Source: Haladaptatus cibarius D43 (GTDB lineage: Archaea > Halobacteriota > Halobacteria > Halobacteriales > Haladaptataceae). From it: DNA of 64,000 nucleotides. Location of the stretch: the NCBI RefSeq assembly GCF_000710615.1, contig NZ_JDTH01000002.1, positions 1,480,082 to 1,544,081 on the forward strand, given 5' to 3'. Below, one piece after another: positions 2,855-64,000 of the stretch; within the stretch, counting starts at the first letter, position 1; the number at the start of each line of letters is the position of its first letter. A model generated the notes under the pieces. The model did not search any database, was not told the origin of the DNA, and worked only from the letters and a program-made list of their open reading frames with translations. A program made the translations under genes and the position numbers.

Positions 2855-3021
2855 CACTCTCCGGAAAATCGGAGATTTTCCGGGCCGACGACTGAATGGA
2901 GCACGGAAGAGCGAAGCTCTTCCGTGCGAAATGAAGGAGGAGTGCTTTTGGTGAAGGTTTTACAGGGAGCCGTCAGGAACGACGCGGTTGTCGTTCCTGA
3001 CCGCGACCGTCGTAAAAGGTT
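2855..3021 (-). repeat. Modular three-hairpin 3' element, copy A
   Basis: On the + strand it reads: box CACTCT; stem CCGGAAAATC/GATTTTCCGG (2861-2870 with 2874-2883); box CGGGCCGACGA (2881-2891); a perfect 12-bp stem GCACGGAAGAGC (2901-2912 with 2916-2927); box GAGGAGTGCTTTTGGT (2937-2952); GTTTTA; a perfect 12-bp stem GTCAGGAACGAC (2972-2983 with 2990-3001); TAAAAGG; then the stop codon of the minus-strand gene at 3022. Copy B at 63575-63696 has the same boxes in the same order, also directly against a stop codon, but different stem sequences. The position suggests a 3' UTR or transcript-end element of the minus-strand gene. Confidence 0.8.
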
Positions 3022-3993
3022 CTACATGTAGCCGAGGTCGCGCAGACGCTCCATCAGGTCTTCTTTGTCCTGGGCGCGGCCTGCACGCTCGGTCGTGTTC
3101 TCCATGTCCTGCAACCATGCCGGTTCCTGGTCGCTCTTTTGCGTGCTGACTTCGCTTCCGAGCGAGCGGAATCCTTCGAAGTATTTCGGCGAAACGGGAA
3201 TGTCGTCCTGTTCGACGCCCTCTGGGAGGTCGTCGAATCCTTGCGGGACGTAGCCGTCGTCGGGGTACGCTTCGACGGTGTCCGGGACGACGAAGTACCA
3301 GAATGCGTCCCAGACGGCAGGTTCGTCGAAGTGGAGGATGGGCTGAATGCGGTCGTGGGGTGGGTAGATTTCGGGGTCGTGGCGCGGGCTGAAGAACGTC
3401 TCGTCGGCGCGGGCTTCTTGTTCGTCCCAGCGCACGCCGGAGATGACGCCGTCCACGTCGTACTCTTCGAGGGCGTCGTTCAGCGCAACGGTCTTCAACA
3501 GGTGGTTGCCGACGTAGGTGTCGAGCAAGAACGGGAAGGTGTCTTCCTCGTATTCCAGCAGGTCGTGAACGTGGTGCTGGTTGTGGTCGGAGAGTTCACT
3601 GATGTCGATGTCGTCGCCGGGTTCGAGATCGTGTTCGTCAACGTAGCCGCCAACGTCCTCATTGCGGGCGTAGATGACCTCCAAATCCCATTCGTCGGCC
3701 CAATGCTCGACGAAGTCGTGAATGTCTTGGAAGTGCTGGAAGTGGTCGATGAAGACCGCCGGTGGAACCTCCAAATCGTAGCGCTCCGCCACTTCCTTGA
3801 TGAAGTAGAGCGTGAGCGTGGAGTCTTTGCCACCCGTCCACATCACGGCGGGGTTTTCGTACTCTTCGAGACCCTTCTTCGTGACCTCGATGGCTTTCTC
3901 TACTTTGTGTTCGAGCGAGGGGTAATCCTCGGGGTTTTCGCCTTCACCATCGCTGTAGTCTACGTCGAGATAGTCTGGAAACTCGTCTGCCAT
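3022..3993 (-). CDS. PAPS-reductase-like ATP-pyrophosphatase (COG0175 type)
   Basis: 323 residues. The PP-motif TGGKDST lies at about residues 53-59, followed by the helix and FIDHFQHFQD strand typical of the PAPS reductase/FAD synthetase superfamily. The protein is longer than bacterial CysH and has no C-terminal Cys-Gly-Leu-His-like redox signature, so sulfonucleotide reduction is not shown. Related archaeal proteins act as sulfotransferase-like or adenylating enzymes, and substrate identity stays open. A hairpin element directly abuts the stop codon, giving this gene an unusually structured 3' end. Confidence 0.8.
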   Translation of the reverse strand: MADEFPDYLDVDYSDGEGENPEDYPSLEHKVEKAIEVTKKGLEEYENPAVMWTGGKDSTLTLYFIKEVAERYDLEVPPAVFIDHFQHFQDIHDFVEHWADEWDLEVIYARNEDVGGYVDEHDLEPGDDIDISELSDHNQHHVHDLLEYEEDTFPFLLDTYVGNHLLKTVALNDALEEYDVDGVISGVRWDEQEARADETFFSPRHDPEIYPPHDRIQPILHFDEPAVWDAFWYFVVPDTVEAYPDDGYVPQGFDDLPEGVEQDDIPVSPKYFEGFRSLGSEVSTQKSDQEPAWLQDMENTTERAGRAQDKEDLMERLRDLGYM

Positions 3994-63389: not shown

Positions 63390-63696
63390 CTCCGCGTTTT
63401 CGACTCTCTTTTGTGGTCTTTCAGCCAGCGAGCGCAGTAAGCGATAGGCAGCGACGCAACCGCCAAGTCTGCAGGCTACACAGTCATTAGTTTCGTGGAT
63501 ATTCACAACCGCCAGAAACAGCAACCAGAACCACTACTCAACTTAGCACTCTACACATCCACTTGCGACCAGCACACTCTCCGCGAACGAAGTGAGCGGG
63601 CCGACGAGCGACCGTCAGGAGCGAGGAGTGCTTTTGGTCGAGCTTTTTATCGAACAGGTCGGCACCGCCGACCTGTTCGCAATAAAAAGGTCGTGG
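63390..63696. other. 307-bp gap containing hairpin element B
   Basis: The right half holds element B (described separately), which abuts the stop of the TFS gene. The left half (63390-63574) has no supported gene; CAGCCAGCGAGCGCAG and an AT-richer stretch near 63482-63560 may be the trmI 3' end. Confidence 0.6.
63575..63696 (-). repeat. Modular hairpin 3' element, copy B
   Basis: On the + strand: CACTCTCCG (63575-63583); a weaker stem CCGC/GCGG; CGGGCCGACGA (63597-63607); GAGGAGTGCTTTTGGT (63623-63638), all 16 bases identical to copy A; CTTTTTAT (63643-63650); a perfect 12-bp stem GAACAGGTCGGC (63652-63663 with 63667-63678); ATAAAAAG (63682-63689); then the stop of the minus-strand TFS gene at 63697. 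CTTTTTAT and ATAAAAAG also pair, so the stem is continued by an A/T base. Confidence 0.8.
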
Positions 63697-64000
63697 TTAA
63701 TGATCGTCTTCGCGCCACTTGTGTTCGCACTCGGTACAGACGAAGAACCGGGTTTCGCTCTCGTCGGCGGAGCGAATCTGTTGCATGTACCAGTAGGCTT
63801 GGTCGTTGTCACAGTTCGGACACTGCGCGCTGGTGGTCGGTAGGCCGTTGGTGCCGCCGCCGCTTTCGATTATCTCGCTAACCTCTTGGTCTTCGGTGAT
63901 GGTGTAGTCGCTGGCGTCGCCTTTGGGCTTTTCGTAGCCACAGCTTCCGCAGACCCAAAGACCATCGTCGGCTTTCATCATGGAACCGCACTCGTCACAG
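63697..64000 (-). CDS. tfs: Transcription factor S (TFS), partial (N-terminus outside window)
   Basis: The gene runs off the right end; the last bases read on the minus strand as the start of CDECGS, so the first residues lie outside. The visible part has the first zinc ribbon CGSCGYEK and the C-terminal ribbon CPNCDND, SADESETRFFVCTECEHKW with the acidic DE pair that TFS/TFIIS inserts into the RNA polymerase active site to promote cleavage. Its 3' end abuts element B. Confidence 0.93.
   Translation of the reverse strand, partial: CDECGSMMKADDGLWVCGSCGYEKPKGDASDYTITEDQEVSEIIESGGGTNGLPTTSAQCPNCDNDQAYWYMQQIRSADESETRFFVCTECEHKWREDDH

Follow-up and report, generated by a model that had tools for sequence, protein, structure and literature searches.

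Two genes within a 64,000-nucleotide stretch of Haladaptatus cibarius D43 DNA (the window) adjoin copies of an element that lies at transcription-unit borders across Halobacteria and that we read, on balance, as a polar two-way terminator/insulator made of U-tracts and a palindrome. Its core consists of a variable, perfectly paired stem enclosed by two conserved boxes, GGAGTGCTTTTGGTCCAGCTTTT on the left and AAAAGGTGG on the right.

Identity and occurrence of the element

The original prediction that two modular copies (A and B) share CACTCT, CGGGCCGACGA and an identical 16-base block around unrelated stems was borne out: both copies contain CACTCT (at 2855 and 63575) and CGGGCCGACGA, the block GAGGAGTGCTTTTGGT is exact at 2937-2952 (copy A) and 63623-63638 (copy B), and the stems are unrelated in sequence and each perfectly paired. 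Both copies belong to one modular family, with the following features (window positions).

Copy A
2861-2883, plus strand: left hairpin 1, CCGGAAAAT-CGGAG-ATTTTCCGG, after CACTCT at 2855
2901-2927, plus strand: left hairpin 2, GCACGGAAGAGCGAAGCTCTTCCGTGC, a variable module
2937-2961, plus strand: conserved box GAGGAGTGCTTTTGGTGAAGGTTTT, with two T4 tracts (2946-2949 and 2958-2961) 12 bp apart
2972-3001, plus strand: variable perfect stem GTCAGGAACGAC/GTCGTTCCTGAC (arms 2972-2983 and 2990-3001), inside the margins ACAGGGAG and CGACCGTCGT
3012-3022, plus strand: right box GTAAAAGGTTC; on the minus strand GAACCTTTTAC, a T4 tract after the stop
3022-3993, minus strand: adjoining gene for a PAPS-reductase-domain protein (323 aa), stop at 3022
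Copy B
63581-63600, plus strand: left hairpin 1, short form, after CACTCT at 63575 and followed by CCGACGA
63623-63648, plus strand: conserved box GAGGAGTGCTTTTGGTCGAGCTTTTT, with T tracts (63632-63635 and 63644-63648) 12 bp apart
63651-63679, plus strand: variable perfect stem CGAACAGGTCGGC-ACC-GCCGACCTGTTCG (arms 63651-63663 and 63667-63679), subtype III
63683-63693, plus strand: right box TAAAAAGGTCG; on the minus strand CGACCTTTTTA, directly after the stop
63697-63981, minus strand: adjoining gene for transcription factor S (TFS; TFIIS zinc ribbon, 94 aa), stop at 63697

At up to three mismatches, GAGGAGTGCTTTTGGT has three matches in the window against 0.33 expected, a count reached by none of 100 shuffles, and the folding z-scores relative to shuffled sequence are -3.1 for copy A and -5.2 for copy B. 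A CACAACCGC motif to the left of the copies also seemed repeated; its count in the window is at chance level (1 versus 0.86 expected).

Throughout the source genome, GGAGTGCTTTTGGT occurs in 8 exact and 4 one-mismatch copies; these 12 align as a single element with a conserved outer helix and double-sided changes, and a covariance model was built from their alignment. The covariance-model search proposed with the original prediction uncovered many more copies, both in this genome (29 at E<1e-3) and in other Halobacteria. All nine Haladaptatus genomes carry between 11 and 37 copies, and matches were found in at least 220 of 294 genomes and at least 69 of 78 genera of the class, lower bounds that reflect the scoring of 13 candidates per genome. 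When 84,980 species genomes were scanned with GTGCTTTTGGTCNAGNTTTT, the matches fell mainly in Halobacteria (Haladaptatus, Haloprofundus, Natrinema, Halopiger, Haloferax, Halobellus, Halorussus, Halobacterium, Halomarina, Halorubrum, Halapricum, Halogranum and Halarchaeum), non-halobacterial matches scoring at most 22.7 bits versus 25-93 bits for nearly all haloarchaeal copies. The element recurs far beyond chance. Rfam gave no match above the gathering score in the window and nothing for the element, and no published description was found in the literature searched, whose coverage leaves out most subscription journals.

Anatomy

Anatomy and position were analysed on 231 unique copies collected with our own finder, 205 of which carry the box; since the finder returned 10 matches when run on a quarter of the data in reversed sequence, some of the 231 may be false. 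The consensus order is GGAGTGCTTTTGGTCCAGCTTTT, a subtype margin, the variable perfect stem, the matching margin and AAAAGGTGG, with left margins such as ACAGGGAG, GCCGAG and TATCGA, right margins CGACCGTCGT, GCAGCGC and CGCAATA, and one or two further variable hairpins to the left of the core. In a longer form, three hairpins in a row (GCGAGATAGC..., TTCACGGGCGACGCCCGTGAA and the variable stem) stand between the same boxes (loci L035, L037, L038, L048, L061, L115 and L158), and at L015, L026, L032, L035 and L037 a second AAAAGGTGG-like right end, resembling the remnant of an older copy, lies about 14-18 bp past the first.

The two T tracts of the box are spaced 12 bp apart in 207 copies. Because T-tract counts over the 231 copies are partly built into the finder, we rely for this feature on the independent set found by the covariance model in the source genome, where two T4 tracts are present in 28 of 29 copies versus 4 of 116 flanking windows; an A4 run at the right end is likewise found in 28 of the 29. 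The doublet immediately outside the second T tract pairs with a doublet of the right box, its two positions matching in 214 and 207 of 221 copies versus 105 and 137 expected; all four pair types (C-G, G-C, A-T and T-A) occur, and the outer doublets at one site change in concert. In copy A, the GAA/TTC of the right box pairs with 2953-2955.

This arrangement places T tracts before the hairpin on both strands, and, as had been predicted, a T tract directly follows the stop when the element is read in gene sense. In bacterial intrinsic terminators, the GC hairpin comes first and a T run follows it on the transcribed strand; their bidirectional versions resemble the element in being palindromes with T and A runs between convergent genes, but in the element the order on each strand is the reverse, T-hairpin-A, so that it is not a terminator of the bacterial type.

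Position at transcription-unit edges

The element had been predicted to belong to gene ends, which describes most copies and leaves out a substantial minority. With gene calls made by our own codon-based script, as the genomes were unannotated, the right end faces a stop codon in 160 copies (median distance 8 bp, 0-10 bp in 123 of them) and the 3' end of a tRNA in 4 (at 6-7 bp in 3), whereas 65 of 229 adjoin a promoter instead and face a gene start, with the ATG at a median of 50 bp. These start-facing copies show an AT peak at -30 and TATA-like motifs in 34 of 44 cases versus 11 of 164 control windows, indicating that the element ends just before the promoter. Its right end thus marks the edges of transcription units and not gene ends alone. 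The left end typically lies 260-300 bp from the next gene, and convergent contexts outnumber divergent ones (98 versus 19, p=5e-14). In the source genome, one 148-aa gene is flanked by the element on each side, both right ends pointing inward.

Back-to-back doublets whose right ends point outward, with spacings from a few hundred to about 1200 bp, were seen, mostly between convergent genes, at L107, L139, L157, L164 and L175, and in the source genome at C2:83942-84412 and C1:782707-783243. To the right of the element at L057, L113, L147, L153, L182 and L205, in several genera, lies a conserved stretch (GTGTACGCCCGGAACACTAACGACCGACCTCATCCC...) that has no Rfam match and is possibly an unannotated RNA gene.

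Stem turnover

Contrary to the original prediction, the stems do not simply drift. In the Haladaptatus litoreus orthologue of copy A, about 100 bp to the left is nearly the same, the boxes are the same and the gene is 97% identical, yet the stem is wholly different and again perfect, which means that it has been replaced as a block; the loop of left hairpin 1, CGGAG in copy A, is inverted to CTCCG. Beside the TFS gene, several Haladaptatus species carry the element at the same place with differing stems: the copy in this genome is of subtype III, whereas two close relatives have subtype I. Among 142 orthologous pairs with well-conserved gene sides, median stem identity is 0.57 versus 0.40 for random pairs, so that some stems have been kept and others replaced. 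Turnover is mainly block replacement rather than slow drift, and may proceed by exchange between copies.

A possible two-way terminator

The right end (AAAAGG) faces the unit and abuts a stop, the BRE/TATA edge of a promoter or the 3' end of a tRNA. In the reading we favour, the two T4-T5 tracts, spaced at 12 bp on the strand that enters the unit, would form a strong archaeal U-tract terminator and stop polymerase arriving from outside by read-through or antisense transcription; on the strand that leaves the unit, the single T4-T6 tract after the stop or tRNA end would terminate the unit's own transcript. The palindrome, perfect on both strands, probably acts as DNA, as a cruciform or structured roadblock that would pause polymerase at the flanking T tracts; alternatively, it may fold as a hairpin when read-through makes RNA from either strand. 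The sequence of the stem is free, and one copy may pass its stem to another as a block by way of the conserved margins. A two-way terminator shielding the unit would explain placement at both stops and promoters.

In most descriptions, termination in archaea relies on U-tracts and requires no hairpin. The element resembles archaeal U-tract terminators, whether intrinsic or dependent on aCPSF1/FttA, in having a tract of T4 or longer downstream of the gene end on the coding strand, T4-T6 tracts right after stops and tRNA 3' ends, and two U4 tracts on one of its strands; to these it adds the fixed 12-bp spacing, the extended conserved box, the palindrome after the tract and the placement upstream of promoters. 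Its parts resemble known kinds, and it is probably archaeal-terminator-like, with defining features beyond those of such terminators. Binding by aCPSF1 and termination are best at two or more U4 tracts, two surpassing a single one in both respects (PMC8716108); in a Haloferax reporter, T stretches gave 95% termination, and a hairpin can bring about 59% (PMC7237163). The U4 tracts make a link to aCPSF1 plausible; termination, its reading by aCPSF1/FttA and the role of the palindrome are inferences.

Several points weigh against a terminator. The two-T4 strand has no annotated transcript to terminate at the 62 copies in (-start, -stop) contexts or at the 19 that separate divergent genes, so that antisense transcription must be assumed there. 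Conservation of the box extends past the T tracts (GTGC, GGTCCAG) and so exceeds what a U-tract terminator would need, and a palindrome after the T tract is not known to have a role in archaeal termination. A structure-based DNA border element, whose palindrome between T-tract boxes would insulate in both directions and be renewed by block exchange and hairpin inversion, structure rather than sequence persisting, is a possibility that we entertain tentatively.

Distribution and mobility

We consider it unlikely that the element is a selfish or domesticated interspersed palindromic repeat of the REP/BOX kind, inserting at gene edges and spreading by copying. Such an origin would suit the modular copies, whose left hairpins and stems are common to several, and the old right-end remnants (AAAACGTTC, AAAAGGTGG) that persist beside newer copies. 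It would also suit a Haloferax site that is filled in three species and element-free in others, from which it follows that gains and losses occur; there, the element has the stop of a gene on one side and, on the other, a second copy of the 3' tail of the same gene. This duplicate spans 47-70 bp (L352 at about 1450-1700 on the minus strand, L355 and L358), and the C-terminus of the gene product, in our own reading, resembles SufS.

The copies are not distributed like those of an active mobile element carried on plasmids: every listed copy in five Haladaptatus genomes lies on the main replicon (an even spread would give this with a joint probability of ~10^-15), and the same sites are kept across species. 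BLAST against phages and plasmids gave no match, a weak test given that stems vary. REP/RAYT repeats combine a conserved palindrome bearing a GTAG or CGTC foot with a linked Y1 transposase. Like REP/BIME and pneumococcal BOX repeats, the element is intergenic and interspersed, with modular hairpins and inverted doublets; unlike them, it has a free stem and conserved boxes, is fixed at unit edges class-wide and needs no linked Y1 transposase. The latter (PF01797) is missing from four of nine copy-bearing genomes, these four having 17-32 copies, so that no consistent link to RAYT/Y1-driven mobility emerges across the nine and the element does not belong with REP/RAYT repeats. MITEs have terminal inverted repeats, a short target duplication and polymorphic insertion; here, the outer boxes pair and one Haloferax site has flanking repeats of 47 bp and longer, and no uniform target duplication was seen. 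The PATEs and small repeats of Haloquadratum are likewise short haloarchaeal elements with palindromes, but they are mobile, with IS605-type ends or terminal repeats (PMC3119063), whereas this element is chromosomal and kept at the same gene edges.

Pairing without strand bias

A hairpin kept for its function as a one-strand RNA should tolerate G.U. Among 5259 Watson-Crick stem pairs, isolated mismatches comprise 28 G.T and 25 A.C, whereas tRNAs from the same loci have 11 G.U and 0 A.C in 161 pairs; G.T is rarer in element stems than in tRNA (p=2e-8), and the G.T:A.C ratio also differs (p=0.004). The stem hence bears no sign of working as a one-strand RNA, no selection on a gene-sense RNA hairpin is evident, and the element does not qualify as a cis-acting structured RNA. 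The same stems occur with loops inverted (for example AACCGC/GCGGTT and AAACCGC/GCGGTTT). Together with the equal mismatches, this points to three options that the data do not separate: the pairing may be maintained on both strands, maintained as a feature of the DNA, or made perfect through template switching.

Strict Watson-Crick pairing lacking strand bias fits a DNA-level role. This pairing, the class-wide conservation of the box beyond the T tracts and the identical right-end placement at stops and promoters could reflect recognition of GTGCTTTTGGTCCAGCTTTT and the palindromic arms by a sequence-specific DNA-binding protein, of the nucleoid or roadblock kind, that insulates units, the U-tracts being incidental. 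As stem sequence is free, this protein could read only the boxes or a cruciform, and the T4 tracts vary least of all parts (in part an effect of how the finder was built), which makes us doubt this explanation. That the element is a 3'-UTR RNA hairpin protecting or processing the mRNA of the adjoining gene seems quite improbable: most copies do begin within 10 bp of a stop and fold more stably than shuffles, but 65 lie upstream of promoters, the mismatches lack the asymmetry seen in tRNAs and loops are inverted between copies.

Integron attC sites have GTTRRRY cores and lie in cassette arrays with an integrase. A recombination junction for gene-cassette exchange of the attC kind, or for deletion-coupled insertions, is very improbable, for although conserved outer and inner boxes pair around a variable hairpin beside stops and blocks are replaced at identical places, like the deletion-coupled insertions of Haloquadratum (PMC3119063), the genes at these sites are unchanged while the hairpins alone differ, no GTTRRRY core was seen by eye in the boxes, and the sites are single and dispersed in both orientations to genes, no arrays having been seen.

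Implications

If the two-way terminator/insulator reading is correct, a class-wide element combining U-tracts with a palindrome would add a type of insulator to archaeal gene regulation, with an order reversed relative to bacterial terminators and with placement before promoters as well. The element offers defined sites for work on aCPSF1 and on how a palindrome is maintained while its sequence turns over.
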